A stretch of 64,000 nt of DNA from Dechloromonas sp. TW-R-39-2 (lineage in GTDB: Bacteria; Pseudomonadota; Gammaproteobacteria; Burkholderiales; Rhodocyclaceae), in the NCBI RefSeq assembly GCF_016864195.1, contig NZ_CP045202.1, forward strand, positions 310,001 to 374,000. The letters run 5' to 3'. Position numbers and translations under genes: made by a program. The notes beneath the pieces are model-generated. The model saw nothing but the letters and a program-made list of their open reading frames with translations, did no database searches and was not told the DNA's origin. This document shows positions 12,801-62,036 of this stretch, one piece after another. The stretch's first letter is position 1. Each line of letters opens with the position of its first letter.

Positions 12801-13705
12801 TCGTCGACGCGCTGCGCAAGGCCTATGCCGGCAACGAAGTGGTTGCCGGCCTGTCCTTCGCGGTTGAACCCGGCACCTGCTTCGGCCTGCTTGGCCCGAA
12901 CGGCGCCGGCAAGACAACGACTTTGCGCCTTTGTCTCGGGTTGACCGCGCCAGACAGCGGCAACATCGCGCTGAACGGCCACACCATTCCGGCCGACGCC
13001 CAAAAGGCGAGAGCGCGCATCGGGGTCGTTCCGCAGTTCGACAATCTTGACCCGGACTTCACCGCCAGCGAAAACCTGCTCGTTTTCGGCCGCTATTTCG
13101 GGCTGAAGGATGCCGAGGTCAAGGCACGTATTCCGCAGCTGCTCGAATTCGCCGGCCTGACCGGCAAGGCCGACGCACGCATCGCGACGCTCTCGGGCGG
13201 CATGAAACGCCGTCTGACGATGGCCCGCGCCCTGGTCAACAACCCCGACATCATCTTTCTCGACGAGCCGACCACCGGCCTCGATCCGCAAGCCCGCCAC
13301 CTGATCTGGGATCGACTGAAACAGCTCAAATCGGCCGGTAAGACGCTGATTCTGACAACGCATTTCATGGACGAAGCCGAGCGTCTGTGCGACCGCCTGA
13401 TCGTCATCGACCATGGCCGGAAAATCACCGAAGGCAGCCCGCGCCAGCTGATTGCCGAGCACATCGAACCACAAGTCATTGAAGTTTTCGACGAATCCGG
13501 CGGTCAACTGGCCAATTTTGTTGAAAACCACCGAGCCCTGGCCGAGCGCGTCGAAACCAGCGGCGAAACCGCCTTCTTCTACTGCCGCGAACCGCGCGAA
13601 CTTTTGGCCAAACTGGCCGAAGCCGACGGCCTGCGCTACGTACATCGTGCCTCAAACCTTGAAGACGTATTCATCAAGCTGACTGGGCGGGAATTGCGCG
13701 ATTAA
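12788..13705 (+). CDS. ABC transporter ATP-binding protein, NodI type
   Basis: ATPase subunit of an ABC-2 exporter. The 305 residues contain Walker [10 protein letters not shown], signature LSGGMKRR, Walker [14 protein letters not shown] and the H-loop [11 protein letters not shown], followed by a C-terminal extension typical of NodI/DrrA-type drug or lipooligosaccharide exporters. The cognate NodJ-type permease is not next to it. The best partner is the permease at 27247, 13.5 kb downstream, in an operon context (cutA, dsbD) that normally follows directly. The pair therefore looks split by an insertion. Confidence 0.88.
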
Positions 13706-13862
13706 GGCGCCGGGGATGATCTTCGGCCGAGGATTTTCTTCCTGTGCACTTCCAGTACAATTCCACGCCTTGAATCACGGCATGCAGCGCCAGAAAACAG
13801 GCGCCGGATGCACACAGGCCCCTGCGCCGGCAGGGCATCGGTTCCGCTACCAAGGATAATCC

Positions 13863-14984
13863 ATGAAAAAAATCGCACTCGCCATTGTCTGCCTCGGCAC
13901 CCTGGCTGCTCCCTTGGCCGTCCAGGCCCAAACGGTCGTCAAGATCGCCTTTGCCGGGCCGCTCACCGGCCCCGTCGCTCACGTCGGCAAGGATGAAGAA
14001 TTCGGCACGCTCCTCGCGCTCGATGATGCCAATGCCAAAGGGCTGACCATCGGCGGCCAGAAAGTCCGCTTCGAACTGATGGCCGAAGATGACCAGGGCG
14101 ATCCGCGCCAGGCAACCGTCGTCGCCCAGCGCATCGTTGATGCCGGCGCCAAAGGCGTCGTCGGTCACGTGACCTCGGGCGCCGCCATTCCGGCCGCCGC
14201 AATTTACGAACAAGGCGGCGTTCCGGCCATCACGCCGTCGGCGACCAGCCCGAAACTGACGCAACAGGGCTTCAAGGTTGCCTACCGCGTTATCGCCAAC
14301 GACTTCCAGCAGGGCGAAGCGATGGCCAAATACGCGGTCGACGCACTCAAAGCCAAGAAAATCGCCATCGTCGACGACCGCACTGCCTATGGTCAGGGGC
14401 TCGGCGATGCACTGGCCGACAACCTGAAAAAACTCGGCGTACAAGTCATCGCCCGCGAATACACGACCGACAAGGCCGTCGACTTCACCGCCTTGCTGAC
14501 CCGCCTCAAGAGCAAGCAACCAGACGCCATCTTCTACGGCGGCATGGATGCCCAGGGCGCGCCGATGCTCAAGCAGATCAAGCAACTCGGCATCAACACC
14601 AAGTTCCTGGCCGGCGACGGTGTCTGTACCGGCGAAATGCTCAAGCTTGCCGCCCAGGCCATGTCACCGGACGTTTACTGCACCCAGGCCGGTCTGCCGG
14701 CCGAGAAAATGCCGGGTGGCACCGAGTTCAAGAAACGCTTCAAGCAGCGCTTCAACACCGATGTCCAGCTCTACGCACCTTATGCCTACGACGCCGCCAA
14801 TGCGCTGATCGAAGCCATGAAGCTGGCCAACTCGGTCGATCCGGCCAAGTACCTGCCGATGCTGCAGAAGGTGAACTTCAAGGGCGTCACCGGCACCGTG
14901 GCTTTCGACCCGAAGGGCGACAACCGCTTTGGTGGCATCTCGCTGTATCAGTTCAAGAACGGCAAGTGGGCGGTCATTAACTGA
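13863..14984 (+). CDS. Branched-chain amino-acid ABC transporter substrate-binding protein
   Basis: Periplasmic type I binding protein of the LivJ/LivK family (373 residues). It has a Sec signal peptide with cleavage near VQAQT (about 22-24) and the family patterns KIAFAGPLTGP, HVTSGAAIPAA and DDRTAYGQGL. No Liv permease or ATPase genes accompany it, so it is either an orphan or works with a transporter elsewhere. A Rho-independent terminator follows 17 bp after the stop, isolating it from the caspase operon. An upstream TACAAT at 13756 is a possible -10. Confidence 0.88.
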   Translation: MKKIALAIVCLGTLAAPLAVQAQTVVKIAFAGPLTGPVAHVGKDEEFGTLLALDDANAKGLTIGGQKVRFELMAEDDQGDPRQATVVAQRIVDAGAKGVVGHVTSGAAIPAAAIYEQGGVPAITPSATSPKLTQQGFKVAYRVIANDFQQGEAMAKYAVDALKAKKIAIVDDRTAYGQGLGDALADNLKKLGVQVIAREYTTDKAVDFTALLTRLKSKQPDAIFYGGMDAQGAPMLKQIKQLGINTKFLAGDGVCTGEMLKLAAQAMSPDVYCTQAGLPAEKMPGGTEFKKRFKQRFNTDVQLYAPYAYDAANALIEAMKLANSVDPAKYLPMLQKVNFKGVTGTVAFDPKGDNRFGGISLYQFKNGKWAVIN

Positions 14985-15000
14985 GCAGCCGCTACTAACG

Positions 15001-15034
15001 AAAAACCCTCCCACGCTTGCCGGAGGGTTTTTTA
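15001..15034 (+). terminator. Rho-independent terminator after the binding-protein gene
   Basis: Arms AAAAACCCTCC (15001-15011) and GGAGGGTTTTT (15022-15032) pair perfectly around a 10-nt loop, followed by a T run. The A-rich 5' side means it could also act on the opposite strand. Confidence 0.93.
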
Positions 15035-15185
15035 TGTCCTCAGAACAGTCGGAGCCCATGGCCGGCATGCTTGACAGGCAATTGATTGTGAACAGCCTCT
15101 GAGAGCACCGACACCGCTCGTCGCCAACAGCCCCCAGCACCTTCGATAATTTACGCAGCATGCCCTTTATGCGAGAATTACTAGG

Positions 15186-15235
15186 TGTCATTTGCTGTTT
15201 GTCATTTTTGACATCCTGCCTCCCAATATCAAAAT
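15186..15235 (+). promoter_or_regulatory. Candidate promoter and operator for the caspase/CHAT operon
   Basis: A perfect -35 TTGACA (15208-15213) is followed after 16 nt by CAAAAT (15230-15235). The -35 is one arm of the inverted repeat TGTCA-TTTT-TGACA (15200-15213), and a further TGTCATTT copy lies at 15186-15193. A repressor or activator site is plausible. The leader to the first gene is about 45 nt. The rest of the 302-bp gap holds the upstream terminator and no recognised gene. Confidence 0.5.
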
Positions 15236-15286
15236 GACTGGAGACCGGATCAAAACCGTAAACGATTGGAAAGGGAGCGTAACCCA

Positions 15287-16003
15287 ATGAATTGCCTGGC
15301 CAGGCTCCGTTATTGGACAGCCATCTACTTTGCAGTTGCGGCTTTTCCAGTAACGGCAGATGAGCACTTCGAACAAGCCAAGGATATTGTCGAGCGCACA
15401 CTCGGTGGACAGGTCACCGGCAATGATGCCGTCAAGCTCAGTTTTGTCGTACTCAATCGCGATGGCTCGACGCAAATGGAACGGGCTGCACACTTTCCGT
15501 TTTACAGCGGTGAGCTAATCCGGGTAAAAGTCGTCAGCAGCCAGAACGGCGCCCTGCAACTGACCAACATTTCGCCAAGTGGAAAAATAACCCCATTCCG
15601 CACCATTCAGGTCCAGGCTGGACTGGCCGCCTACTATCCACCAGAAACGGGTGGCGTTCTCGAATTCACCAACAACATCGGTACTGAAATTCTGCGGGTC
15701 AGCTTGACGCCGACTCAGGCTATGCCAGTCGCCCAACCGAGCGCCCCGGCCACAGCAGGTCAGCTCCAATACCCCACAAACTACGGGGGAAGTCCGCAAA
15801 ACTCGGCGCCCCCTCCCGGCAGTTCGTCGGCCACGCCTTCACGAGCCAGTGAGTTCTTTTCCGGCGTTCAGGGGAAGTCTTACACGTATGCCAAGGATAT
15901 TCGCGAAACGGTTTTGGAGATGCAGCAAGGGACATATCTGACCCGGCCAAGCGGCAGCGGTCCATTGCAGTACGAAGTCAGCATTCAGCATCGCAACCAG
16001 TAG
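15287..16003 (+). CDS. Secreted DUF4384-like protein, first gene of the caspase operon
   Basis: Exported protein of 238 residues with no assigned function. A signal peptide (hydrophobic YWTAIYFAVAAFPV, cleavage near TADE) precedes a beta-rich domain (about 45-150) with the pattern FYSGELIRVKV, SPSGKITPF and EFTNNIGTEILRVSL. This is the same fold signature as the second gene and resembles the DUF4384 domain often found next to caspase-like proteins. A Pro/Ser-rich linker (about 155-195) and a short C-terminal domain ending YEVSIQHRNQ follow. The start at 15287 is chosen for its SD (AAGGGAG). It is probably a periplasmic partner of the protease. Confidence 0.7.
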   Translation: MNCLARLRYWTAIYFAVAAFPVTADEHFEQAKDIVERTLGGQVTGNDAVKLSFVVLNRDGSTQMERAAHFPFYSGELIRVKVVSSQNGALQLTNISPSGKITPFRTIQVQAGLAAYYPPETGGVLEFTNNIGTEILRVSLTPTQAMPVAQPSAPATAGQLQYPTNYGGSPQNSAPPPGSSSATPSRASEFFSGVQGKSYTYAKDIRETVLEMQQGTYLTRPSGSGPLQYEVSIQHRNQ

Positions 16004-16110
16004 GGTGCCCAATGCTCGCGCTCGGCACGATGGCCCCAAGCTGCCAAGCTGTCCCTCTGGACACGGCTGATCCTGTACGCATTCCGCAATTGACTTCAAG
16101 GATACGCCCG

Positions 16111-17013
16111 ATGTTTCGCACGATGCGCTTTTTAGTTCCGCTGTTTGCCCTGACGTCGCTTTCCATCAGCCCGCTCGGTGCCTCGTCGAATGCGCCTCAA
16201 GACCCGAGCCAGGAAACAAAGGCGATCCCGGCAATTGTCGCTGCACTGCTGTCCAATCTGATTGCCTCGGGTGCCCATAGCCTGACCAATCACTTTTTGC
16301 CACAGACTTCCGGGGTGTCGCCCCAAGCCGCCGGGCAGCCCTCCCTGCCATGCCATGCCTCAATCAACAGCGCACAAAAGATCTCGGCGACGATTCGAAA
16401 TGAATTGATGCAAGCGGGTTGCCAGCTTGTTGGGCAATTTGTCGGGGCGGCTCCGACAGCGTTGAACAGTGCGGTAAACGGACTGGTGGAAAATGTTCAA
16501 CAGACCCAGTCCGAACTGGCCACCCCACTGAGTTACAGCCCGGTCAACGGACCGAATTACCAAGGTCTGAAAGTCAGCGTCTTGGTGATCAACAGCCTGG
16601 GATCGGTCATCGAGGAGCGGGCGATCAACGCATCGTTCTATAGCGGCGAGAAATTCCGCTTGCGGGTGCAATCGACCTTTCCCGGCTTTCTTGAAGTGAC
16701 CCATACAGCGCCTTCCGGCACGAAAAAGCCTTTGTTTCCTAGGCCGGAAATCGGCCAATTCATGCTAGCGGCGGGCGGTGAAGTGATTCTGCCGCTGGGC
16801 CAGCAAAACACTTACGAATTTGCCGGGGATACCGGTATCGAGCAACTTACCTTCAGCATCCGCGACCCGCGTATCGCACATGCGTCACAAGCGGCCCAGG
16901 AAGTCTTTCGCCAGGACACGGAGAACGGTAGCTATTACGCCCAAACCCTCGCCGAAGGCCAACTCCCCTATATATCCCAATCCGTGCGCTTGAACCATCG
17001 CCCACAGAATTAA
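16111..17013 (+). CDS. Secreted DUF4384-like protein, second gene of the caspase operon
   Basis: Exported protein of 300 residues, paralogous to the first gene over its second half: SFYSGEKFRLRV, APSGTKKPLFP, EFAGDTGIEQLTFSI, and the ending YISQSVRLNHRPQN mirrors YEVSIQHRNQ. The N-terminal signal peptide is FLVPLFALTSLSISPLGA. The extra N-terminal region (about 40-140) has two cysteines and small-residue-rich helices. The start at 16111 has an AAGGA SD; a 33-codon extension to 16012 is possible but less likely. It ends directly before the caspase start codon. Function unknown; the context suggests a cofactor or substrate of the caspase-like protease. Confidence 0.7.
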   Translation: MFRTMRFLVPLFALTSLSISPLGASSNAPQDPSQETKAIPAIVAALLSNLIASGAHSLTNHFLPQTSGVSPQAAGQPSLPCHASINSAQKISATIRNELMQAGCQLVGQFVGAAPTALNSAVNGLVENVQQTQSELATPLSYSPVNGPNYQGLKVSVLVINSLGSVIEERAINASFYSGEKFRLRVQSTFPGFLEVTHTAPSGTKKPLFPRPEIGQFMLAAGGEVILPLGQQNTYEFAGDTGIEQLTFSIRDPRIAHASQAAQEVFRQDTENGSYYAQTLAEGQLPYISQSVRLNHRPQN

Positions 17014-18546
17014 GTGAAAAATATGACTATCAAGCTTAAATCAGTTCTAGCCAGCATTCTTTTGAGCACCAGCCTGCCCTACACCCATGCGGCGAATCAT
17101 GCATTAATCATGGGCATTGAAAACTATGAGCGCAGCCCACTGCATGGAGTACCCAAGGATCGCGCCAATGCACGAAAAATCGCCAAATCCATGGGAGTGC
17201 CAGATGAAAATATCATTGAGCGTCAGGAAAAAGCCCTGACCCTTGAGGGCTTGCGCACCACCCTCAAACAATTCCAGAAAACAATCGGGCCGGGTGACCG
17301 TGTATTTGTCTATTTTTCCGGGCACGGTACCAGCCAGTCGAACGGAAAAAATGGCTGTGAGCAGGGACTCGTCACACAGGACATGCAAGTCATGCCCAAG
17401 GCGGAGTTCCACGCCTTGATTGATCCGATCAAGAACGTAGCAGCAAAAACGATTGTTTTTCTAGACACGTGCTTTTCCGGTGGCGTCGTGACCACGTCCA
17501 AGGCCACGCGAGACTACGAGGGTGATGAACTCAAGCCCAAGTTTCTCCAGCCAAAGCTCAGCATGAGCCAAAGGGATACCTGTGGAGATGCCGTCAACTA
17601 CGCCAAGGCAACGCGCGATTTTGATGACATCCAGCAAGCCCAATCAACCCCGAATTATTATCTTCTCGGTGCAGCCGGCCCGAATGAATATGCCATTGAC
17701 GGGGGTCCCGTGCGGGGCAGTTTCGCAACCGCCGCACTGCTGGAATGCCTGAATCCCGAATCAGGGGCAGATCAAAACCGCGACGGGATCATTTCTCTGG
17801 AAGAAGCCAAAATTTGTGCACAAGTCCGCGTTAATCGGATGCTGAGGCCGCCATTCCTGGCACAAACATTGACCGCCGGTGATGGTCAGGGGGGCGGAGC
17901 CACCCCCGTCTCCTTCGGGCTCCCCCCTACCAGCGCTCCAGCCAGTGCATCGACGCCAGCGCCGGTGCCCGTGGCGCCGAATGCTACCGCCTCAAGCCCC
18001 CCCGCTCCTGGAAAAATCGACAGCCGGCAGCTCCTCGAGACGCTCAAACGCGGCGCCGACCCCAAGCATCAAGTCACCATTCGTTCAGCCAAAACCGCCT
18101 ACAAGATTCGTCAGGATTATCTGGACTTGGAGGTCACCTCCAGCAAGCCTGGCTACCTGACCTTACTCTCGGTCGGGTCGAGCGGACGGATTTTCCAACT
18201 ATTTCCCAATGAACTTGATCAGAAGAATCGCCTTGAAGCCAACGTCGCACTGCGCATTCCCAGACCCGAATGGCGTGTCGCCGCGAATGGACCAGCGGGA
18301 AGCAACCGTTTCCTGGCTATTGTCTCGGGCTCTGCCGATCGATTCGCCAGTATTGGCGTCCCCATCGCTGGGCGCTTCAGGGCCGTTGACAACACCCCCG
18401 GTAACGTCAGAGACATGGTTGAACGGCTGACCGCCCCAACCACAAACTGCGCCGTCGCCACGGCACGCGACTTCGACTCACCCGAAGCAGCTCCGTGTGG
18501 CGCAGCCTACGGGGCCGGATTGATCGACGTACGCGAAGTCGACTAA
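17014..18546 (+). CDS. Secreted caspase-family (C14) protease with EF-hand loop and DUF4384-like tail
   Basis: Predicted exported cysteine protease of 510 residues. A signal peptide (about 1-27, SVLASILLSTSLPYTHA) is followed by a C14 p20 fold. Histidine 104 in YFSGHG and cysteine 153 in LDTCFSGG form the expected dyad. Residues 253-264 (DQNRDGIISLEE) match a canonical EF-hand loop, with ligands at positions 1, 3, 5 and 12, hinting at calcium control as in metacaspases. A Pro/Ala/Ser linker (about 305-332) leads to a C-terminal DUF4384-like domain (about 335-440) resembling the two upstream proteins. The GTG start abuts the previous stop; ATG at 17023 is an alternative. It is the central gene of the operon. 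Confidence 0.85.
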   Translation: MKNMTIKLKSVLASILLSTSLPYTHAANHALIMGIENYERSPLHGVPKDRANARKIAKSMGVPDENIIERQEKALTLEGLRTTLKQFQKTIGPGDRVFVYFSGHGTSQSNGKNGCEQGLVTQDMQVMPKAEFHALIDPIKNVAAKTIVFLDTCFSGGVVTTSKATRDYEGDELKPKFLQPKLSMSQRDTCGDAVNYAKATRDFDDIQQAQSTPNYYLLGAAGPNEYAIDGGPVRGSFATAALLECLNPESGADQNRDGIISLEEAKICAQVRVNRMLRPPFLAQTLTAGDGQGGGATPVSFGLPPTSAPASASTPAPVPVAPNATASSPPAPGKIDSRQLLETLKRGADPKHQVTIRSAKTAYKIRQDYLDLEVTSSKPGYLTLLSVGSSGRIFQLFPNELDQKNRLEANVALRIPRPEWRVAANGPAGSNRFLAIVSGSADRFASIGVPIAGRFRAVDNTPGNVRDMVERLTAPTTNCAVATARDFDSPEAAPCGAAYGAGLIDVREVD

Positions 18547-18591
18547 GCCTCGGAACTGCCCATCCGAACTCAAATTAGCCGGAACCGACCG

Positions 18592-21500
18592 ATGATAAAA
18601 ATAATTGTTTCAGTTTCCTTCTGCCTGCTCAGTAGCGGCCTGTTGGGCAACCTTTGGGCCAATGAAGACGAAATCGACACGGAAGCCGCTGCCAAGGCTG
18701 CAGGTAAAGTTACGCAGATCAGCCCTACCCAGGCCTCGCTGAATAACCGGACACAGTTCACCATCTCGGGCAGCTTGCTGCCGAGCAGCCTGGCTTTTGC
18801 CATTGCCGATGCCGAGTGCAGCAAATTATCCGGCAACAGCTCGCAAGCCAGCTTTGCCTGCATTCCGCGAGTGGCCGGCAACAAGGCTTTTGTGGTCAAG
18901 GATGCACCGGGAGGAACTGCGCTTGCTTCGGGACTGGTCAGCATCGGTAGCAGCGTGGCGGCCCCCGCACCGTCAGCGCCGCCCCAAAGCGCCATGAACA
19001 TCAGCTCGGCAAGCGCTGCGACGGCCTTGATACTCAACCAAGCGGTGACGTTCAATCTGTCCGGGAGCGGCTTGCAATCCGGTCAGATAAGAATATCGCT
19101 GACCAATTGCGAAAACAGCAGCGTCCAGGCACTTAGCGCCAGCCAGGCACGCTTCACCTGCACACCACGGGCAGCAGGTGCACAGCGGCTGTTTTGGAAA
19201 AAACCCGGCTCGGAGGATTCAATCACACTCGGTGAGCATCTTATTGCCACCCCAGTTGCGAAGCCGCCAGTCAGCGAGCCGGCACCTCCCACGCCGGCAC
19301 TGCTGAACATCAGCAGCGCAAGCCCGACGGGGCCACTACAGATGAACCAACCGGTCAGCTTCAATCTATCGGGTACCAATTTGCAATCCAGCCCGATTCG
19401 CATCTCGTTGACCAACTGCGACAACAGTAGCGTGCAGGTACTCAGCCCGACACAGGCCCGCTTCACTTGTACGCCCCGAGCCAGCGGCATGCAGCGTCTG
19501 TTCTGGAAGAAACCAGACTCCGAAGTCGGTTTCATGCTCAGTGAATATCAGATCACTGCCGCCACACCATCACCGGCAGGCAACGGAAACTACGCGTCAA
19601 CCAACAGTCTGTTGATCAGGCATGCGCGGCAAGCGGGAATCCCACCGATTATTCCCAAGGCGATGGCCTATCTCGAAAGTCAATGGGATCACCTCCTTAA
19701 TGGCCGGCCCAAAGCCTCGTCCACCAATTGCTGTTTCGGCATCATGCAGGTCAAGGGTGCTGCAAGCGAATCCGAGGAGCAGAACATTCAACTGGGTATG
19801 GGCATACTCAACCAGAAATGGCAGCTCAATGTCAGTTCCGGTGCCGTCGCCGCACTCAGCAAAATCGATGGCATCGAGGAAGACTTTGACAAGCGCATCC
19901 TAGAAAACTGGTTTTTCCCGATTGCTGCCTACAATGGCTCCCAGAAACTTGCCAACGGCCAGTCCGGTTACAAGCTTGCAGATCAGTACACCCGCTCGGT
20001 CTACAGCATCATCGCCAATCCTGCTGACGCGCTGAACTACGCGGCCACAACGCCAGCAGCCAGGAACGTCAAGGCTGAAGTCGCCGGCTTCATCTTTCCC
20101 AGGGTACAAATTACCTCGCCCAGCATTATTCCTGGATTCAATGGCGGCACGACCGACCAGATCCAGCCCTATTCGCTCTGTCAGATGGTCCGCGCCGGCG
20201 GCATGATTCATCGTTACAACTTCGACAACGACAGCGTAGAGGACTACACCGCGCCAATTCGCAGCAAATGCGCTCAGAAGCAAGGCACTGCGCCCATCCA
20301 GACTTCTGCCATCCAGATCACCCAGGTAGCGCCCTTGAGCGGTCCGGTCGGCCAGCCGCTCACCTTCACGGTCAGCGGCGTCAACCTGCCTCCCACCCTA
20401 GCAATCAACCTCGATGGCGAGCGCTGCTACAACGATACCAAACCGGCGGCAAATCAGGTCAAATGTGACGTCACCCGGCTCGGGATCAACCCCAGACTGA
20501 CCGTAAAAGACAAGCCAGGCGGCCAGGAATTGAGGACTTTCCAGTTCGAAGGCAAGGCACCTCCCCAGGTCCCGATGAGCGGGAAAATCGCCGCACCGCT
20601 CAGCAAACTGACCATCACCCAGGATTTCGGCAACTATCTCGGCGTCTATGGCGGGATCGCCTACAAGGGATACCACACAGGCACGGATTTCCGTGGGGGC
20701 AGGGGAACGCCTGTCTTCAGTATTGCGGACGGTACCGTTTCCCGGGTTGCGCCCGCATCCAGCGCCAATCCGGCCAGCCTTGGCTGGTATGTGGTGATCG
20801 ACCATCCAGCGCTGAACATTCGCAGCGTTTATGTCCACACTGAAAAGCCCGGTGTTTCGAAAGGCCAGAATGTTCGTGCCGGAGAACAAATTGCCGAACT
20901 GGGCAAACCTACCCAAGTTCCGTCTCACCTGCATCTCGAGGTCCAGCGGTTCGACCGGAAAGTGGTTGATTCACGCGGCAACTTTGCCCCCTTCGTCAAT
21001 AAATCCACCTCCCCGGTCGGCAATCGTGGCTATGCCTCACGCGCTGGTGACCTTGCCAGTGTCTGGCTAGACCCGGTCAAACTCCTGAATTCGGGTGGGA
21101 CCGCCAAGGCGGTGGAAGCGCTGATCGAGCAAGGTGCAAATGACTTCTCGGCACATGCCTACAACCACGATGTTCAAGAAGATGATCCGATGCTTCAGGA
21201 TCAGGTCAGTCGCCAGAAAGCACTCGATCAACTGGCCCGACTGGCGGTCCAGAAAGGCCTGGCTCAGTCAGCAACGTCGAGCGAAATGCAACGTCTTGGC
21301 CTCTTCCAGGGAAGCACCTTGAGCCGACCTGCCGACATGGCATCACGCATGGAAGTCGCTTTGATGGTCAATCGGCTGATCGCTCCCCTGAAACTGGCCA
21401 CGGTCAATGCCGAGAAGCGCTTTGCGCTAGAGGAATTCGGCAGCACGCCGGAAGCCACAGAGCAGGATTATCAAAACGTGGTCAATTATCTGTACCAGAC

Positions 21501-22068
21501 GGGCATCATCAACGGCCAGCAAGATCACCTGGGCGAATGGCGCTACTACCCGACGCGAAAAATCAGCCTGGACGAACTGGGCAAGGTGACAAGCCGTCTG
21601 GAAACTGCAATCCCGGTGCGGACCTCAGCCCCGGCCCCGTTGCCGGTGACACCGATCCCGATGCCCTTTCCAGCCACGCCCCCGGCGCCGGTTCAACTCC
21701 CCGTCACGCCGCCCGGCAGCAACCCTGTCGGCCTTTACCTGAGCTCAACAAGCCCTGCCGTGGGGGAAACGGTGATGGTCAACCTGACGGGTAACCTGCC
21801 AGTGCAGCAAGCCAGTGACATTTATCTCTATCTCAAGGTGGCGCAACTAGGCGGGCAAGTCACCTGGTATTACAACCGCCAGCTCAATGACGATGGGGCA
21901 AAGCCCTGGCGGGCCTCGGTCCAGGGACCCAACCTGCCAGAGACCAACCCGGTTCTCCAGTACGCCCCCCGACTGCCCGGTGCTTACGCTGTCGGCATTC
22001 TGGTCGTGCCTGCGGGCACGCCCATCAACATGGGTCTGGCCACCGAAACAAGCTTCACCGTTCAGTAA
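18592..22068 (+). CDS. Large secreted peptidoglycan hydrolase: IPT-like repeats, lytic transglycosylase, M23 endopeptidase, SLH-like region
   Basis: Exported multidomain protein of 1158 residues. Order: signal peptide (1-24, cut near LWAN); three IPT/TIG-like repeats (about 40-325), the second and third nearly duplicate; an SLT-like lysozyme domain with catalytic E362 in YLESQW, then FGIMQV and AAYNG; a fourth IPT-like repeat (about 570-650); an M23 metallopeptidase with H695-x3-D699 and H779-x-H781; an SLH-like segment (about 860-1000); a Pro-rich linker and a C-terminal beta domain. It should cut both glycan strands and peptide crosslinks. It sits 45 bp after the caspase gene and is the likely effector or target of the proteases. 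Confidence 0.85.
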   Translation: MIKIIVSVSFCLLSSGLLGNLWANEDEIDTEAAAKAAGKVTQISPTQASLNNRTQFTISGSLLPSSLAFAIADAECSKLSGNSSQASFACIPRVAGNKAFVVKDAPGGTALASGLVSIGSSVAAPAPSAPPQSAMNISSASAATALILNQAVTFNLSGSGLQSGQIRISLTNCENSSVQALSASQARFTCTPRAAGAQRLFWKKPGSEDSITLGEHLIATPVAKPPVSEPAPPTPALLNISSASPTGPLQMNQPVSFNLSGTNLQSSPIRISLTNCDNSSVQVLSPTQARFTCTPRASGMQRLFWKKPDSEVGFMLSEYQITAATPSPAGNGNYASTNSLLIRHARQAGIPPIIPKAMAYLESQWDHLLNGRPKASSTNCCFGIMQVKGAASESEEQNIQLGMGILNQKWQLNVSSGAVAALSKIDGIEEDFDKRILENWFFPIAAYNGSQKLANGQSGYKLADQYTRSVYSIIANPADALNYAATTPAARNVKAEVAGFIFPRVQITSPSIIPGFNGGTTDQIQPYSLCQMVRAGGMIHRYNFDNDSVEDYTAPIRSKCAQKQGTAPIQTSAIQITQVAPLSGPVGQPLTFTVSGVNLPPTLAINLDGERCYNDTKPAANQVKCDVTRLGINPRLTVKDKPGGQELRTFQFEGKAPPQVPMSGKIAAPLSKLTITQDFGNYLGVYGGIAYKGYHTGTDFRGGRGTPVFSIADGTVSRVAPASSANPASLGWYVVIDHPALNIRSVYVHTEKPGVSKGQNVRAGEQIAELGKPTQVPSHLHLEVQRFDRKVVDSRGNFAPFVNKSTSPVGNRGYASRAGDLASVWLDPVKLLNSGGTAKAVEALIEQGANDFSAHAYNHDVQEDDPMLQDQVSRQKALDQLARLAVQKGLAQSATSSEMQRLGLFQGSTLSRPADMASRMEVALMVNRLIAPLKLATVNAEKRFALEEFGSTPEATEQDYQNVVNYLYQTGIINGQQDHLGEWRYYPTRKISLDELGKVTSRLETAIPVRTSAPAPLPVTPIPMPFPATPPAPVQLPVTPPGSNPVGLYLSSTSPAVGETVMVNLTGNLPVQQASDIYLYLKVAQLGGQVTWYYNRQLNDDGAKPWRASVQGPNLPETNPVLQYAPRLPGAYAVGILVVPAGTPINMGLATETSFTVQ
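18994..19557 (+). repeat. Tandem duplicated IPT-like repeat inside the hydrolase gene
   Basis: Two units start at residues 135 and 238 (309-bp period). They share NISSAS, NLSG, RISLTNC, ARFTCTPRA and RLFWKKP, with two cysteines each, and are also alike at DNA level, implying a recent in-frame duplication. A more diverged unit precedes them and another lies at about residue 572. Confidence 0.85.
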
Positions 22069-22100
22069 ATTGCGTCACACAAACAAGAGGGGAGTACATC

Positions 22101-23228
22101 ATGAAAAAAATAGCCATTCTGCTTTCCGCACTGCTGCTCGGAGGTTGCTACTCGATCAGTGCAAAAATTGCCTCGACCGGACTGCCGAACTCAAAGTACC
22201 GGCCCATCATGGTTTCGGAATCAGAGGTGGATACTTGGGTCGAGGCAATCCGTCTGGTAGACAAGAAAGTCGCCACCGACGAGCTCGGCACTTATTACCA
22301 TGACGTACGGGCAGACGGCATTTACGGTGCATTCATTGCGAGCCAGGATGGCACCCTGCTGAAGAATCTCTTCTCCGGCGATGTCGGACTACTTGAGCCT
22401 ATCTACAGCTACGACGATACACTCGAACTGAAACCTGACTGGGCAGAAACCGAACGACGCTACGACTATCTGACCAAGACGATCAAGCTCAAGCTTCTGC
22501 CACTCCAGACAACCCGCAAATACCATCAACTAGTCGATGAAAAAGTCCGCAGCGTGGCCTCCCGTGGCCAGGCATACTCGATTTCCGATGCTTTTAGCGG
22601 CAACATGGGCCTCTACGGCCCAAGCTTCTACCCGGAGATCATTCAGAAGATTCCGGGCAAATTTTCCTACTTCGTATCTTCGGCCGGCGGGGCCGGAGCC
22701 TATTACGGAAGCGTCGCCGGCAGCATCCAGCGCCAGCAGTCTTACCAGGCTAGCCTGCAGGATACGGAACGTCGTGAGTACATGCGCAAACGCGGGCAGG
22801 ATCTGAAAAAAATGGATGAAGATGCCAAGCGCTCTCTGACGCTGACCAACAGCCCGATGGCTTATCGGGGGACCGCCCAGGCCATTCGGGCAGGCAATCC
22901 GATTGTCTTCGGGCTCGTGGAAACCTATCGCGAACTGAAATCCGGCGGTGCAGCAGCGATGGTCATGGGGAGCGGTTGCGGATTCCAATCACCCGAAGAC
23001 CAAAAAGCTAACATCCGCAATATCAAGGCAAGCACTGATATTCCCTATGCCTCCGCGATTAATATGGCTATTAAGGAGCGCAACGCAGAAGAGCTCAGCA
23101 AAGCGCGGGAACAGTTTCTCCTGGCTCGCAAGGAATCCGCCGGGCTTGCCAAAAAACATGAAATTGCCTGCCTTGGCCTGAGATCAATCGGCGTTGCCGG
23201 CGCCATTTCTTCGCAAAAACTCGACTAA
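22101..23228 (+). CDS. Lipoprotein of unknown function in the caspase operon
   Basis: Predicted lipoprotein of 375 residues. The lipobox LLLGGC places the lipidated cysteine at residue 16, followed by YS, which suggests outer-membrane sorting. The rest is mixed alpha/beta with a Gly/Ala/Ser-rich stretch (SSAGGAGAYYG, about 195-208) and a basic helical region (about 210-245). I recognise no domain. A good SD (AGAGGGGAG) precedes it. It lies 32 bp after the hydrolase gene and before the CHAT lipoprotein, so it is probably part of an envelope complex with them. Confidence 0.72.
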   Translation: MKKIAILLSALLLGGCYSISAKIASTGLPNSKYRPIMVSESEVDTWVEAIRLVDKKVATDELGTYYHDVRADGIYGAFIASQDGTLLKNLFSGDVGLLEPIYSYDDTLELKPDWAETERRYDYLTKTIKLKLLPLQTTRKYHQLVDEKVRSVASRGQAYSISDAFSGNMGLYGPSFYPEIIQKIPGKFSYFVSSAGGAGAYYGSVAGSIQRQQSYQASLQDTERREYMRKRGQDLKKMDEDAKRSLTLTNSPMAYRGTAQAIRAGNPIVFGLVETYRELKSGGAAAMVMGSGCGFQSPEDQKANIRNIKASTDIPYASAINMAIKERNAEELSKAREQFLLARKESAGLAKKHEIACLGLRSIGVAGAISSQKLD

Positions 23229-23242
23229 TCCAGCTGAACACC

Positions 23243-23264
23243 GGATGACCTGTGCAGGTCATCC
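23243..23264. promoter_or_regulatory. Intercistronic perfect hairpin before the CHAT gene
   Basis: Arms GGATGACCTG and CAGGTCATCC are perfectly complementary around a TG centre. There is no T run, so it is not an intrinsic terminator. It sits 24 nt upstream of the CHAT start and could adjust translation or RNA stability, or be an operator. Confidence 0.6.
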
Positions 23265-23287
23265 GCTTCCCTTGTACGGACCTCGTC

Positions 23288-25465
23288 ATGAAACAAGCCC
23301 CGATCAAACGTGCCTTGGCATTATTGTCGTCTTTCGTGCTGTGCAGTTGCGGCAACCTGATCGTCCCCAAGTACGGCGTTCAGGATGACGTTGCAGCATC
23401 AGCCATTCGCCGAATCAATGGCATCGCCGAATTGCGTTCAACGCAAAGATATCAGGGACTGGTCACACAACTCGAGGCAGATTATCAAAAGTTCGGCCGC
23501 TCGGCATATGCACAACCACGAATCCTGAACGAACTGGCCGACATCTACAGCCTGCAAACGCTTGATATTGAAAGCGCCATACAGGCTGATGAGCAATTGA
23601 TCCGGAGCGATATCCCTGCCGCGGACACCACTGGCGATTTTCTGCCCCGCTACCAGACTGCCAGCCAATACACCATTGCTGACAGCCAGTACGTCACCAA
23701 ATACGTTTCAGTCGATGCCGCTACCATCAAGAAAAGTGCCACAGACCGCCTCCAGACGAACCGCCAACTGCTCGCTGGAAATCGTCCCAATACCAGCAAA
23801 ACCTATGCGGCCGACAAACTTCAGCAACACATCAAGCAGGTCCAGAACGATATCGACAGCACCCCCCCCGGCTCGGCAGCCCGCAAGCGGATTCTCTCCC
23901 GACTGATCCGCGGAGAATATGAGCTGAGCAAAATCAGCTCCAAGGCCACGCTGGCGGCTTATCGCTTCATAGACAAGGGCGACATGTCGAGCGATGGTGT
24001 AGACCTGTCAGAAATCGACTTCCTTAGCTTGGCCGACTACTACATCCAGGTCTTCCGCCGGACAGGCAATATCGTCTACGCCGAGTATGCCCTGGACACG
24101 GTCTATCGCCCCTACAGCAACCTGCGCAACCCATCGTTCCGCTGGCGCTACAACAAACTGATCAACGACTACATTTCAACCTTGATCGAAGCCAATTTCC
24201 AGGCTGAAAATTTCGATGAAGTGTTGTACTACGTTAGCCTGAACAAGTCCCGCCTGCTACTCGAAGAACGTCTGGCATATACCCGTGACAGCGGGAACGC
24301 CATGGCCAAGGTGGCAGATTTGGCAAGCGAAGACGGGATTCCCCGTACCCCCTCGGGACTGCCGCAGAAAAGCTGGTACCGCCAACGCCTGGCCCAATCC
24401 GGTCCGTACCTTGATTTGTATGTTGGCGGCAAGTTCATGCCCCTTGCCGCCAACAAGAACATCCGTGCCGCAAAAGCCGAACGAAGCACCATGCCCCTGA
24501 CAACACGGGACTTTGGTATCGATGATGCAGCACTGGCCAGCGACAGTTTTGTCGATGATGCGCTCTATGCCACCCGGATCGACTCAGGCAGGGTGATCTC
24601 TGTCAAGAAACTCAGTGGCAATGAGCTGGCAAACCTGAAAAACGAACTCAACCGATCCTACGACCAAATTTCCCAGAACAAGGACAAGCCAGGTGATGCT
24701 GCAGCCTTCTTTCGGAAAATATCGTCAACCAACCCGATGCCGGAACGCTTGACCGTGAGTCCAGACAAATGGGTATTGCGTCACCCGATTGACTTCCATC
24801 TTGGCGCCAAGGTCACCCGCTCGGTTAATTTCTTCACCACCGGAGACGCACGACAGCTCAGGGATATTCGGGTCAGCGGCTTTTTTAACCCGACACTCGA
24901 TCTCCAGGGTGCCGAACAGGAAGCTGAAGCGATTCGGCAATACGTACCGTCAGCCCAGGTTTTCAAACGTGAAGCGGCCAACCTTCAAGCACTGCAATCG
25001 GCAAGCGATGCGACCGTCGTCCATTTGTCGATGCATGGCCAGTTCAATGCCGACGATCCGAAAGACTCGCGCCTGGCATTCAACGGCGCCATTCGCGGGC
25101 GTAGCGTGACGACCGATCCGAATTCACTGTACGCCCGTGACATGCACAAATACGCAGCACTGAAAGGTCGTGATCTGGTCTTTGCAGCAGCCTGTCAAGC
25201 CGGTCTCAGCGCAGCGGATCAGGCCAACGAGAACGAACTGATGGGCATCCTTCGACCGCTCACAGCCAACCGCAACCGCAACATCATCCTGTCGCTATGG
25301 AACGTTGATGACATTGCGACACGTGATTTTGTCGCCGCTTTCTACCAACAGCTGGCCCAAACCCACGATATCGTCACTGCTTTCCATCATGCCCAGGACG
25401 AAGTCCGCAAAAAATACCCGCATCCATATTACTGGGCATCCTTCTACCTGGCACAAGCACGTTAA
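23288..25465 (+). CDS. CHAT-domain cysteine protease lipoprotein
   Basis: Predicted lipoprotein protease of 726 residues. The N-terminus MKQAPIKRALALLSSFVLCSCG carries a lipobox. A long helical, TPR-like region (about 30-400) precedes a C-terminal CHAT domain. The catalytic pair is H583 (HLSMHG) and C636 (AAACQAG), with the family hallmarks ILSLWNVDD, FYQQL, A-x2-D-x-VRKKYPHPYYWASF. CHAT proteins are caspase relatives (separase-like clan), so this operon carries two clan CD proteases. A run of eight cytosines (23862-23869) lies in the coding frame. The stop overlaps the convergent radical-SAM gene by 4 bp. Confidence 0.88.
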   Translation: MKQAPIKRALALLSSFVLCSCGNLIVPKYGVQDDVAASAIRRINGIAELRSTQRYQGLVTQLEADYQKFGRSAYAQPRILNELADIYSLQTLDIESAIQADEQLIRSDIPAADTTGDFLPRYQTASQYTIADSQYVTKYVSVDAATIKKSATDRLQTNRQLLAGNRPNTSKTYAADKLQQHIKQVQNDIDSTPPGSAARKRILSRLIRGEYELSKISSKATLAAYRFIDKGDMSSDGVDLSEIDFLSLADYYIQVFRRTGNIVYAEYALDTVYRPYSNLRNPSFRWRYNKLINDYISTLIEANFQAENFDEVLYYVSLNKSRLLLEERLAYTRDSGNAMAKVADLASEDGIPRTPSGLPQKSWYRQRLAQSGPYLDLYVGGKFMPLAANKNIRAAKAERSTMPLTTRDFGIDDAALASDSFVDDALYATRIDSGRVISVKKLSGNELANLKNELNRSYDQISQNKDKPGDAAAFFRKISSTNPMPERLTVSPDKWVLRHPIDFHLGAKVTRSVNFFTTGDARQLRDIRVSGFFNPTLDLQGAEQEAEAIRQYVPSAQVFKREAANLQALQSASDATVVHLSMHGQFNADDPKDSRLAFNGAIRGRSVTTDPNSLYARDMHKYAALKGRDLVFAAACQAGLSAADQANENELMGILRPLTANRNRNIILSLWNVDDIATRDFVAAFYQQLAQTHDIVTAFHHAQDEVRKKYPHPYYWASFYLAQAR

Positions 25466-27078
25466 GTATCGAGGCCTGGCCGGCTGACCAAGACACGATC
25501 GATGCAATCAGCCGTCACCCCGCCATGCCGTTCCTGCCGCTGGACCAGGGCGCTTGAAGCCTTGGGCAGCGGCTTTTCCCGATCTTTCAGCAAACCGGCC
25601 AGACAAGCTGGATTGGATCGGGCGCCGCTGGCCCGATAGTCGGCCAGAAGCATAGTGCGGACAGACTCTCCGGGCTGGCCGAGCACGCCGGTCAGGTAGT
25701 CGAACAGGCCATCGAGCAGCATTTCCGGGCTCAAGCCGCTGGTTTTCTGCCGAGTCTCCCAGAGCCAGTCGCTGAAAGCGAGAAAAGCATGGAACGGAGA
25801 GGGTGCTTCAAGCAGGGTTGCCAGCGTTGCCGGGAAACGGCCCGAATTGGCGATCAGATCCCAGTAGCGGGCAAAACGGGTGAAGCGTTGCACGGTCGAC
25901 GCATCGACAACGCCGGTTTGGGTGATGGTGTAGGGCGGCTGGGCGTCATAGACCATGCCGTATTCAAGCGTATGCCGGGCAATCGGCGTACCGCGCAGGC
26001 GTTTCAGGATACCGAGCTGGATTTCGTCGGGCTTCAGCGCATACAGGCGGTCGAAGCCGGCCGCAAAGCTGGACAGGGTTTCACCGGGCAGGCCGAAGAT
26101 CAGGTCGGTGTGCAGGTGAGCATGACTGTGCCTGACCAGCCAGTCGAGATTGGCGCAGGTCCGGTCATTGTCCTGACGACGCGAGATACCTTGCTGGACG
26201 GCCGGATTGAAGCTCTGGATACCGATTTCAAACTGCAGCACGCCGGGCGGAAAGCGGGCGATCATGGCTTTCAGGCGATCCGGCAAATGGTCGGGAACCA
26301 CCTCGAAATGCAGGAAAAGGTCGGGCGTCAGACGATCGATGAAGAATTCCAGGATGCGTAGCGAACTGTCGATCTTGAGGTTGAAGGTGCGATCGACAAA
26401 TTTGAAATTGCGCGCTCCGCGCTGGTAAAGCGTTTCCAGGGCAGAAAGAAAGCGCGCCTCGTCAAAGGCCCAGGCCGTTTTGTCGAGCGCGCTGAGACAG
26501 AACTCGCATTTGAACGGACAGCCGCGCGACGCTTCGACATAAAGCAGGCGATGCGCCAGATCGTCGGCACTCAACTCGGCATAGGGCAATTCAATCTCGG
26601 CCAGGCTGGCCTGCTCGCCGGCGATCACTTTCATCAAGGGTTGCGGCCCATGCAGCAAGGCACGGCACAATTTTGGGAAACTGACGTCGCCCCAGCCGGT
26701 GACCAGATAATCAGCCAACCGGACGATTTCCTGCTCGTCCCATTCATGGCTCACTTCCGGCCCGCCCAGGACAATGATCAACGCGGGACGCCGGGCCTTC
26801 AATTGACGAATGACATCGGTCGTCTGCCGCACATTCCAGATATAAACCCCGAAACCGACGATCTGGCGGACGCCATCACGAGCTTCGCCGAGTTCGGCGA
26901 GCAACGCATCGACAATTTCGGCGACCGGGCGGGCGATCGTGAATTCGCGCAACACCGTTGCGGCGCGCAGTTCAGCGCCGCCATGGCGGGCCATATTGGC
27001 CAGCAGATAGCGCAATCCCAGCGAAGCATGGATGTATTTGGCGTTAAGGGTCGAAAGCAGAATGGCAGGCGGTGTCAT
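25462..27078 (-). CDS. B12-binding-domain radical SAM protein (DUF4080 type)
   Basis: Cytoplasmic Fe-S enzyme of 538 residues. A Rossmann-like B12-binding domain (about 5-150, with VLGGPEVSHEW) precedes a radical SAM barrel whose cluster ligands are C187, C191 and C194 in CPFKCEFC, and a C-terminal DUF4080-like region. The canonical cobalamin motif DxHxxG is not evident, as in other members of this subgroup, so cobalamin use is uncertain. It is transcribed towards the CHAT gene and away from the NodJ-type permease. The reaction is unknown. Confidence 0.85.
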   Translation of the reverse strand: MTPPAILLSTLNAKYIHASLGLRYLLANMARHGGAELRAATVLREFTIARPVAEIVDALLAELGEARDGVRQIVGFGVYIWNVRQTTDVIRQLKARRPALIIVLGGPEVSHEWDEQEIVRLADYLVTGWGDVSFPKLCRALLHGPQPLMKVIAGEQASLAEIELPYAELSADDLAHRLLYVEASRGCPFKCEFCLSALDKTAWAFDEARFLSALETLYQRGARNFKFVDRTFNLKIDSSLRILEFFIDRLTPDLFLHFEVVPDHLPDRLKAMIARFPPGVLQFEIGIQSFNPAVQQGISRRQDNDRTCANLDWLVRHSHAHLHTDLIFGLPGETLSSFAAGFDRLYALKPDEIQLGILKRLRGTPIARHTLEYGMVYDAQPPYTITQTGVVDASTVQRFTRFARYWDLIANSGRFPATLATLLEAPSPFHAFLAFSDWLWETRQKTSGLSPEMLLDGLFDYLTGVLGQPGESVRTMLLADYRASGARSNPACLAGLLKDREKPLPKASSALVQRQERHGGVTADCIDRVLVSRPGLDT

Positions 27079-59737: not shown

Positions 59738-60105
59738 CGTGCGTCCTGCTTTGGCCGTGGCCGCCGCAGTTTATCCAGCAGGGCGAGAAAATCGCCAGCC
59801 AATTGCTTGCCATCCAGTAAGCCAGGCTTTACAGCCAAGCGAACAACCAGATCACAGGCTGGCAGACTCGATTTTTGAACGCGAAACTGCTCCCGAATGA
59901 TACGTTTGACTTTGTTACGGTCAACAGCACGTTTTAGGAGTTTTTTGCCAACGACGACGCCAAGCCTGGCTTCCGTAAATTCGGCAGCTCTGGGTTGGTA
60001 GTGCAACATCAGCAGTTGTCCGCGAATCGCCCTCCTGAAACCAAAAACGGATGAGAACTCATCCGTTTTTGTCAGGCGATAGCGTCTGGCGAAGGTTTGT
60101 TCCAC
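59734..60105 (-). CDS. rnpA: Ribonuclease P protein component
   Basis: RNase P protein subunit (123 residues), which helps the catalytic RNA cut tRNA precursors. The RNR motif is in [18 protein letters not shown], and the N-terminal [17 protein letters not shown] matches the family. It lies 17 bp after rpmH. A 28-nt perfect inverted repeat flanked by A and T runs falls in its 5' coding region (60043-60070) and may attenuate transcription from rpmH. Confidence 0.95.
60043..60070. terminator. Terminator-like perfect hairpin inside rnpA
   Basis: Arms AAAAACGGATGAG (60043-60055) and CTCATCCGTTTTT (60058-60070) are perfectly complementary with a 2-nt centre and end in T5 on either strand. It encodes the KTDEFSSVF part of rnpA. 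It would suit partial termination between the abundant rpmH message and the rest of the operon. Confidence 0.7.
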
Positions 60106-60122
60106 CTCGCCGAACGTCCGGT

Positions 60123-60257
60123 TTATACGGCCAGGCGTGAGCGACCCTTGGCGCGGCGAGCAGCAATAACTGCACGGCCACCCTTGGTGCGCATACGAAC
60201 CAGGAAGCCATGGGTGCGCTTGCGGCGCACGACCGACGGTTGATACGTGCGTTTCAT
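60123..60257 (-). CDS. rpmH: 50S ribosomal protein L34
   Basis: Ribosomal protein L34 of 44 residues, very basic. [22 protein letters not shown] and the end [11 protein letters not shown] are nearly invariant in the family. The open frame can be read 24 codons further upstream, but the ATG at 60257 is the family start and has an SD (AAGGGA). It is the first gene of rpmH-rnpA-yidD-yidC-mnmE. Confidence 0.98.
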
Positions 60258-60293
60258 GTTGGTAATCCCTTGATGTGCTAAGAAAAACACGTG

Positions 60294-60323
60294 ATTACAC
60301 CGTGCTTTAGGGTGCTCTGTCAA
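60294..60323 (-). promoter_or_regulatory. Candidate rpmH promoter
   Basis: On the minus strand TTGACA (60318-60323) and TGTAAT (60294-60299) are separated by 18 nt, giving a leader of about 30 nt. A second TTGACA lies 14 nt further upstream. DnaA boxes sit just upstream. Confidence 0.7.
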
Positions 60324-60343
60324 GTTCAATTATTTGTCAACGC

Positions 60344-60364
60344 TGTGGATAACATTGTGGATGA
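60344..60364. promoter_or_regulatory. DnaA boxes in the rpmH-dnaA intergenic region
   Basis: TGTGGATAA (60344-60352) is a perfect DnaA box in reverse orientation (TTATCCACA). TGTGGATGA (60356-60364) has one mismatch. They probably serve dnaA autoregulation. The remainder of this gap is AT-rich with no other recognised element. Confidence 0.8.
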
Positions 60365-60492
60365 GGGGTAGAATAAGCGCCCTGAAGGCGGCCGGTGAGC
60401 CGCCAATTTTGTTATATATTTACCAATTAAATCAATTAGTTAATACTGCAGTTTTTCATTTTTTGATTGTGCAGTAAGGAGTGTTGTTGGCA

Positions 60493-61878
60493 ATGGCCGG
60501 TTTCTGGGAATCATGTTTGCTCCGTTTTGAGCAGGAATTGCCCGCACAGCAATTTAATACCTGGATCAAACCACTCAGGCTCGAAGGCGAAAGCACGCCG
60601 CTTGATGGCTTGCGCTTGATCGCACCAAACAGCTTTATTCAAAAATGGGTACGCGATCGCTATCTCGGCCGCATTGAAGAATATGCACAGGCTTTCTTTT
60701 CTGCCCCAGTCACTATTTCTCTGACCATTGGCAGTGGCCGCTCATCAGCGCCAGCTTCAAACACGACAAATACCGCTCAGACACCGACTGCCGGCACTAA
60801 TACTTCCAACAACAGTCCAGTTCCTTCCGAAAAACCTCGCGGCCGAACCAGCAACTACGAAAAATCACGCCTTTTTTCTTCTTTCACTTTCGACAACCTG
60901 GTTGTCGGCAAGGCAAATGATCTGGCCCGGGCAGCATCTGTTCAAGTTGCAAACAATCCGGGCGGTGCCTACAACCCACTTTTCATCTACGGTGGGGCTG
61001 GACTGGGTAAAACCCATTTGATTCATGCCATCGGCAATACCATCCTTGCTGAAAATCCGGAAAAAATCGTTCGCTACGTACATGCTGAAGACTATTACTC
61101 CGACGTAGTCCGGGCTTATCAGCAAAAATCCTTCGATTCCTTCAAGCGCAGCTACAGGACGCTTGATGTTCTTTTGCTTGATGACGTTCAGTTTTTTAAC
61201 GGAAAGAACCGTTCCCAGGAAGAATTTTTCTTCCTGTTCAATGCGTTAATTGAAGCCCGCAAACAGATCATCATCACCTGCGACACATATCCGAAAGACA
61301 TCAACGGACTTGATGATCGTCTGGTGACGCGCTTTGACTGGGGTCTTACGGTCCAGATCGAGCCGCCCGAACTGGAAATGCGCGTTGCCATTCTCAAGAA
61401 AAAGGCCGAGGCTGAAGGGTTACAGCTTGATGACGAAGTTGCATTTTTCATTGCCAAGCATCTGCGTTCGAACGTCCGGGAACTGGAAGGGGCGCTCAAG
61501 AAGGTCCTGGCTTATTCGTCTTTCCATGGCCGCTTGATTGCACTCGATCTTGCCAAGGAAGCGCTCAAGGATTTGATCGGCTCTGTCCGCAATGTCGGCA
61601 TGGATAACATCCAGAAAACAGTTTCCGACTACTACAAGATCAAGGTTGCAGACCTGTTTTCAAAAAAACGGACACGTGCCATCGCACGTCCCCGGCAAGT
61701 TGCAATGTGGTTGTGCCGTGAAGTGACCTCACACAGCTATCCTGAAATTGGTGATGCATTCGGCGGCCGTGATCACACAACAGTCATTCATGCCGTCAAG
61801 ACAATCGACAGCTTGCGCACCAAAGAAAACGAACTCAACCATGACCTGCATGTCCTTTTACAGGTACTTAAAGGCTGA
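60493..61878 (+). CDS. dnaA: Chromosomal replication initiator DnaA
   Basis: AAA+ initiator that binds oriC and opens DNA. The product has 461 residues from ATG 60493 (MAGFWESCLLRFEQ); GTG 60481 or TTG 60487 are possible and closer to the SD AAGGAG at 60476. Domain I (1-80), a Ser/Thr/Asn-rich linker (about 85-120), the ATPase domain (GGAGLGKTHL, LLLDDVQFF) and the DNA-binding domain IV with the signature GGRDHTTVIHAVKTI can be read. It is followed by an intergenic region with multiple DnaA boxes. Confidence 0.97.
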   Translation: MAGFWESCLLRFEQELPAQQFNTWIKPLRLEGESTPLDGLRLIAPNSFIQKWVRDRYLGRIEEYAQAFFSAPVTISLTIGSGRSSAPASNTTNTAQTPTAGTNTSNNSPVPSEKPRGRTSNYEKSRLFSSFTFDNLVVGKANDLARAASVQVANNPGGAYNPLFIYGGAGLGKTHLIHAIGNTILAENPEKIVRYVHAEDYYSDVVRAYQQKSFDSFKRSYRTLDVLLLDDVQFFNGKNRSQEEFFFLFNALIEARKQIIITCDTYPKDINGLDDRLVTRFDWGLTVQIEPPELEMRVAILKKKAEAEGLQLDDEVAFFIAKHLRSNVRELEGALKKVLAYSSFHGRLIALDLAKEALKDLIGSVRNVGMDNIQKTVSDYYKIKVADLFSKKRTRAIARPRQVAMWLCREVTSHSYPEIGDAFGGRDHTTVIHAVKTIDSLRTKENELNHDLHVLLQVLKG

Positions 61879-62036
61879 TCTGTTGATAAGTCTGAGGGAA
61901 AGCTGTCAGGCAATTGTGAGCAAACTTGGATTTTCAATTGAACGAAAAAATTGTTCGACATTGATCCACAGCTTTCAAGGGTAGTTTTCAAGAGGCAAAA
62001 AATAGATTTAAGTAGATGATTTTTATATAAAATTTA

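Follow-up and report, generated by a model that had tools for sequence, protein, structure and literature searches.

Introduction

Bacterial caspases and CHAT proteases have been studied mainly as cytoplasmic proteases of defense or cell death. Here we analyze a stretch of 64,000 nucleotides from Dechloromonas sp. TW-R-39-2 (contig NZ_CP045202.1, bases 310001-374000 within the complete 3.46-Mb genome), hereafter the window, in which six genes at positions 15287-25465 encode a caspase carrying DUF4384, a CHAT protein, two small DUF4384-like proteins, a putative lipoprotein and a predicted peptidoglycan hydrolase with an SLT and an M23 domain. The pairing of a DUF4384-bearing caspase gene with a neighboring CHAT gene recurs in other genomes, and the N-termini of all six products look by eye like those of exported proteins.

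Among described systems, the orthocaspases show the same pairing of C14 with DUF4384 as the caspase of the window. The accessory domains listed for orthocaspases include DUF4384, with 23 cases in one cyanobacterial table, and a legend assigns one pseudo-orthocaspase a twin-arginine translocation (TAT)-signal-like N-terminus, so that a hint of export is already published (PMC8283722, PMC7475262, PMC6426788). Unlike the window, the passages of these papers on orthocaspases present no operon in which CHAT and a peptidoglycan hydrolase occur. In Craspase, TPR-CHAT (Csx29) with Cas7-11, a CHAT protease is under partner control; according to the available accounts this system is, however, CRISPR-associated and RNA-guided, whereas the CHAT protein of the window seems exported and Pfam finds no CRISPR protein among the six products. 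Neither a gasdermin nor a Cas7-11 partner was matched among them by Pfam at E 0.1.

A proteolytic cascade deploying an effector has been proposed for conflict systems by Kaur et al. 2020 (PMC7159879), some of which, in the portions of that paper considered, include lysozyme-like and papain-like peptidoglycan peptidases. The core given there is instead a NucA nuclease combined with a trypsin-like peptidase, to which some of the systems add EAD1 or Death-like parts. In Pfam, none of the six proteins matched trypsin or NucA, and no search by name was made for EAD1 and Death-like domains. On the hydrolase side, M23 endopeptidases of the MepM/ShyA/Pgp3 type and SLT lytic transglycosylases each have a catalytic domain that is predicted, with its motifs, in the protein of the window, which differs from those enzymes in joining M23 and the predicted SLT in one chain together with TIG domains. 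Among the matches listed in the open-licence literature there was no description of an exported caspase-DUF4384/CHAT operon, with or without an SLT-M23 protein.

Two proteases and a predicted wall hydrolase in one block

An earlier sequence-only reading of this DNA had proposed a six-gene operon, and the six reading frames are indeed open over their full range and share the plus strand, on which all features of the block given below are located. The intergenic gaps measure, in order, 8 or 107 bp (depending on start choice), 0, 45, 32, and 23 or 59 bp. Two clan-CD proteases, each with a dyad, had also been claimed; Pfam searches and alignments bear this out, and both dyads are intact. Gene 3 (17014-18546) encodes a putatively exported caspase with matches to Peptidase_C14 (E=1e-17, 65.1 bits, cut-off 21.4) and, C-terminally, to DUF4384 (1.2e-16). 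Its dyad residues H104 and C153 align with those of all 13 relatives compared, and gene 3, like each of these relatives, keeps an aspartate two residues N-terminal of the cysteine. Gene 6 (23288-25465) encodes a CHAT-domain protein and probable lipoprotein with an atypical lipobox, LCSC; the CHAT match (1.2e-32, 114 bits, cut-off 24) covers positions 97-287 of the 289 in the profile, and histidine and cysteine of the dyad, H583/C636 counted from the ATG at 23288 or H595/C648 from the GTG at 23252 where the frame opens, align with 5/5 relatives compared. The assignment of gene 3 as an EACC1-associated caspase (NCBIfam NF047832) was rejected at 48.8 bits against a cut-off of 140. For known anti-phage defense systems, PADLOC (2023 library) gave only weak matches in the operon, to its generic 'caspase' model (4.9e-11) and, over the CHAT region, to BovA (1.8e-6).

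Gene 4 (18592-22068) encodes a 1158-residue predicted bifunctional peptidoglycan hydrolase composed of TIG repeats (Pfam 2.2e-11), an SLT domain (19615-19941), an M23 domain (20671-20958) and a conserved C-terminal domain. The transglycosylase and M23 motifs that had been noticed in it are both present. For M23, the Pfam match is at 3.8e-19 (69.1 bits, cut-off 28.7), with HxxxD from residue 695 (H695, D699) and HLH at 779-781 intact. The SLT domain scores 16.2 bits (E=0.0077), under the cut-off of 21.3, with the catalytic Glu362 and GIMQ from 383 in place; its assignment is supported by a homologue from a metagenome-assembled genome of the Hydrogenophilales (G177), whose SLT domain is 55% identical and scores above the cut-off (27.6 bits, 2.3e-6). 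The nine NCBIfam models matched by gene 4 all remain far under their cut-offs.

The two small proteins described as DUF4384-like paralogues are paralogous at 34% identity over 98 residues (E=4e-10); neither reaches the cut-off of the DUF4384 profile, and we keep the label DUF4384-like only. Gene 1 (dufA, 15287-16003), whose product of 238 residues counted from the ATG is predicted to be secreted on a signal peptide seen by eye, has no Pfam match, the DUF4384 profile included. Gene 2 (dufB, 16111-17013), likewise with a predicted secreted product, lies in a frame opening at 16012, probably starts at the ATG at 16111 and matches DUF4384 at 1.1e-4 and 22.6 bits, under the cut-off of 27. Its AlphaFold2 (AF2) model consists of long N-terminal helices of low confidence followed by an immunoglobulin (Ig)-like beta-sandwich, at a mean predicted local distance difference test (pLDDT) score of 56 and 58-86 in the sandwich blocks. 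Gene 5 (22101-23228) encodes a putative lipoprotein of no known family, as had been stated: it carries the lipobox LGGC, seen by eye, and no match was obtained in Pfam, PADLOC or NCBIfam.

Export signals had been claimed for all six products. A signal peptide or lipobox can be recognized by eye at each N-terminus, while a crude hydrophobicity score overlapped one cytoplasmic control and gave no clean separation (FabF 2.53 vs. gene 3 2.52). From the N-termini we infer export of all six products.

The caspase-CHAT linkage recurs across the order

Within 300 genomes of the order, DUF4384 was found in 43, CHAT in 84 and both in 20. In seven of these 20 two-domain genomes (G000, G157, G177, G182, G217, G340, G351; the window genome is included in this count), CHAT and DUF4384 are no more than 10 kb apart, compared with 0.38 genomes expected within 15 kb under random placement of CHAT (P about 3e-8). 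Leaving out the window genome results in 6/19 (P about 4e-7), and additional removal of G217 (weak CHAT) and G182 (weak DUF4384) in 4/17 (P about 2e-4). A DUF4384-bearing caspase beside CHAT, with both domains confirmed, occurs in four other genomes (G157, G177, G340, G351), and G182, with its weak DUF4384, represents a fifth case.

This linkage differs between two kinds of DUF4384 locus. The neighbor comparison used 45 of the 51 DUF4384 matches, at 44 loci; outside of it remained second matches in G000, G177 (C35) and G351 as well as those of G130, G317 and one of G227. Caspase and DUF4384 share one reading frame at 15 of the 44 loci and not at the other 29. CHAT was located within 10 kb at 6/15 of the former and at 0/29 of the latter (Fisher p=7e-4), and at 5/14 of the former if either the window or G182 is omitted (Fisher p=2e-3). 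With the sole exception of G298, on a contig of 8.3 kb, the caspase-DUF4384 loci have a further C14 or CHAT gene no more than 10 kb away (14/15). In 12 of the 15 proteins both domains exceed the Pfam cut-off, those of G182, G203 and G306 being less certain, and four of the fifteen genomes are not independent because they share one genus (G101, G148, G269, G329).

Both protease genes find their best match among the linked sets compared at a single G157 locus, gene 3 in its caspase (34%, 239 bits) and gene 6 in its CHAT protein (38%, 112 bits), a hint of co-inheritance. In the tree, the caspase of the window falls into a 12-row group with proteins of G177 (C15), G157, G340 and G351; support for this group is 93/93, which is not firm, and the row of the window is long.

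Further genes were observed in the surroundings of such loci. In G351, the caspase/CHAT/DUF4384 cluster has at its OmpA end, at a distance of approximately 3 kb, a gene for a phage-lysozyme and M23 fusion (L056:14036-15424). This fusion, again a wall hydrolase for glycan plus peptide but of a second kind, belongs to a separate gene group and shows no clear signal peptide. The middle of the caspase/CHAT cluster contains a gene for a Tubulin_2-family protein (E=9e-49; L056:6199-9351). In G162 (L093, L094), a kinase-DUF4384 gene adjoins a type VI TssM/IcmF gene, with a TPR-CHAT gene on another contig, and DUF4384 may therefore serve more than one envelope system.

The hydrolase family is linked to caspase and DUF4384-like genes in a second genome

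Relatives of gene 4 were sought in overlapping sets of 149, 399 and 117 genomes. In the set of the 149 nearest, no genome but that of the window gave a match to gene 4 extending beyond an M23 stretch. Gene 4 had matches in 12 of the 399 genomes of the order, and two, the window and G177, match in the SLT region; within the family of G177, a relative occurs in 1/117 genomes, namely G177 itself. A pattern scan of a genome-contig collection (84,980 species), limited by its search pattern, returned three loci, the one close relative being the same G177 record.

The G177 cluster (L034) encodes, in this order, a 684-residue protein, a 307-residue protein, a caspase of 466 residues, homologues of gene 1 (P0008, E=1e-29) and gene 2 (P0009, E=7e-38), both 34% identical to their counterparts in the window, and the SLT-M23 homologue, which shares 55% identity with gene 4 in SLT and 39% each in the M23 half and the C-terminal domain. 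In the G177 hydrolase M23 precedes SLT, the reverse of gene 4, and three Kazal protease-inhibitor domains are present (E=1.9e-18) that are absent from gene 4. Genes 5 and 6 had no match at this locus. At a second G177 locus (L055), a divergent CHAT gene is found together with a caspase-DUF4384 gene and one whose product resembles that of gene 2. The operon of the window thus joins what G177 holds at two loci, the hydrolase cluster and the caspase-DUF4384/CHAT group. Caspase, dufA, dufB and SLT-M23 genes are co-located in both genomes found to carry this SLT-M23 family and, since gene order differs and the two catalytic domains are swapped, the linkage has outlived rearrangement.

Conserved linkage had been named beforehand as the test of the sequence-only reading. 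It is found for two subsets, the G177 hydrolase cluster and the caspase-CHAT pair, while the complete six-gene set was present in no other genome searched.

Beside the caspase/DUF4384 genes, a gene for a branched-chain-type substrate-binding protein is found in the window (13863-14984) as well as in G177 (L055:7804-8946), with 52% identity between the two; a search of the nine congener stretches gave no match.

Probable insertion site and candidate control elements

Of 19 genomes of the genus that were examined, 11 (the own genome among them) were found to have the radical-SAM gene that lies downstream of the block and is convergent with gene 6. Stretches around this gene were compared in nine of the ten other congeners, with both flanks available in seven, and in none of these seven syntenic congeners (tblastn, E 1e-20) is any of the six operon proteins encoded at the same site. 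In G008 the flanking genes are only 15 bp apart, representing an empty site, and the interval from the ABC-transporter ATPase gene to the radical-SAM gene (13705-25462) is variable in the congeners, several of which contain other genes there. The operon has a GC content of 0.564 vs. 0.633 and 0.612 in its flanks, which is consistent with acquisition, and the host genome contains one further C14 match and one further CHAT match, both far from the operon. Taken as a whole, the block is probably a horizontally acquired accessory envelope module.

Upstream, an intrinsic terminator (15000-15033) with a 12-bp stem and a T run lies between the substrate-binding-protein gene and the operon. At -16.4 kcal/mol (z -4.30; 0/200 shuffles equally stable), it is strongly indicated to end the upstream gene and to set the six-gene block apart from it. 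The candidate operon promoter is a sigma-70-like match at 15208-15235 (TTGACA-16-CAAAAT, 10/12 consensus positions), which is weak because the scan gave 6 matches in total vs. 4.9 expected. Between genes 5 and 6 a hairpin (23242-23265) with a 10-bp stem and a 4-nt loop, without a T run and single copy in the genome, is a possible processing or attenuation site and may give the CHAT gene a different expression; since the GTG at 23252 sits within its loop, gene 6 probably starts at the ATG at 23288.

Two observations concern the neighborhood. The flanking radical-SAM/B12-binding protein (25462-27078) matches the PADLOC candidate-defense model PDC-M51A (8.5e-30), although it occurs in 11/19 genomes of the genus and is probably a housekeeping protein. 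The right end of the window (60001-64000) has a GC content of 0.487 vs. 0.585 overall, possibly a further island.

Discussion

Our preferred reading, to which we give slightly less than an even chance, is that DUF4384 serves docking, the hydrolase or an inhibitor is the target of the proteases, and controlled cutting of the wall is the outcome. It may serve lysis of the own cell, attack on neighbors or remodeling; the sequence-only reading had suggested a system for protease-activated lysis, remodeling or contact response. The caspase-DUF4384 protein and the CHAT lipoprotein would form a clan-CD protease pair in the periplasm or at the outer membrane, and the two small DUF4384-like proteins would act as adaptors, bringing the caspase to the SLT-M23 protein by way of the DUF4384 that the caspase itself carries. 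As effector, the SLT-M23 protein would cut glycan strands and stem-peptide cross-links. It would be kept inactive or localized as long as neither the hydrolase itself nor a partner inhibiting it has been processed by the proteases, and the result would be local peptidoglycan breakdown under protease control. In favor of this reading are the encoding of proteases and a predicted glycan-plus-peptide hydrolase in one block, the relatedness of the small proteins to the C-terminal domain of the caspase, the Kazal protease-inhibitor domains of the G177 hydrolase, the linkages described above, the single G157 locus behind the best matches of genes 3 and 6, and the OmpA-domain genes beside several of the loci. 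The parts of this proposal differ in strength. The exported protease pair is fairly well supported as a recurring module, because a DUF4384-caspase beside CHAT recurs in other genomes, and its link to the SLT-M23 hydrolase is moderately supported, on two genomes.

Several observations weigh against the proposal. The SLT-M23 family was found in two genomes only in the sets searched, and the hydrolase cluster of G177 is devoid of CHAT, its caspase has no DUF4384 and the CHAT gene of that genome resides at another locus. The usual targets of Kazal domains are serine proteases rather than clan-CD enzymes. A C14 gene is also near 16/29 of the other DUF4384 loci (p=0.01 for the contrast with 14/15), and the linkage to a second caspase is a general DUF4384 trend that is only moderately stronger at caspase-DUF4384 loci. 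The export calls were made by eye. Relatives of gene 5 were not found in 148 other genomes, plasmids, viral contigs or part of the loci compared; this, together with the full set being seen in no other genome searched, counts against a fixed six-part machine.

Wall remodeling for a surface or secreted structure, with the hydrolase opening the peptidoglycan, the proteases and DUF4384/OmpA-like proteins assembling or quality-controlling that structure and no killing involved, would account for the OmpA-domain genes adjoining several caspase-DUF4384 loci (Pfam-checked in G351, G340 and G148), for the kinase-DUF4384 gene beside TssM/IcmF in G162 and for the TIG domains of gene 4. We nevertheless regard it as unlikely, as ten annotated neighbors include only two with exporter-like products, an ABC ATPase and an ABC-2 membrane protein, both of which also occur in congeners without the block, and the block itself is absent from 7/7 syntenic congeners. 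Still less probability is given to a secreted weapon, a released hydrolase cutting the walls of neighbors or predators with the proteases maturing it or shielding the producer. A long, multidomain, putatively exported hydrolase without lipobox would suit such a role, as would the accessory distribution and, in a protease-rich outside, the Kazal domains of the G177 homologue, but the six genes include neither a dedicated exporter nor a recognizable immunity gene, and the products of genes 5 and 6 look cell-anchored. Unrelated cargo, i.e., independently acquired envelope genes without joint function gathered at a hot spot between the ABC-transporter and radical-SAM genes, would fit the variable site with its other genes, the full set not having been seen in another genome searched and the general proximity of C14 to DUF4384 genes, but is just as improbable given the single strand, the short gaps and the recurrence of two separate sub-linkages, the CHAT one well above chance.

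If the preferred reading of protease-controlled wall cutting is true, the recurring exported pair together with a cutter of two kinds of wall bonds would place a caspase-like circuit in the envelope. For DUF4384, docking would become a function open to testing, and a system of two proteases and one substrate would be available for rebuilding from purified parts. More broadly, and as a rather doubtful generalization, some bacteria may possess an extracytoplasmic caspase/CHAT circuit with DUF4384 docking and a bifunctional peptidoglycan hydrolase as effector, which would constitute an envelope counterpart of caspase-driven death.

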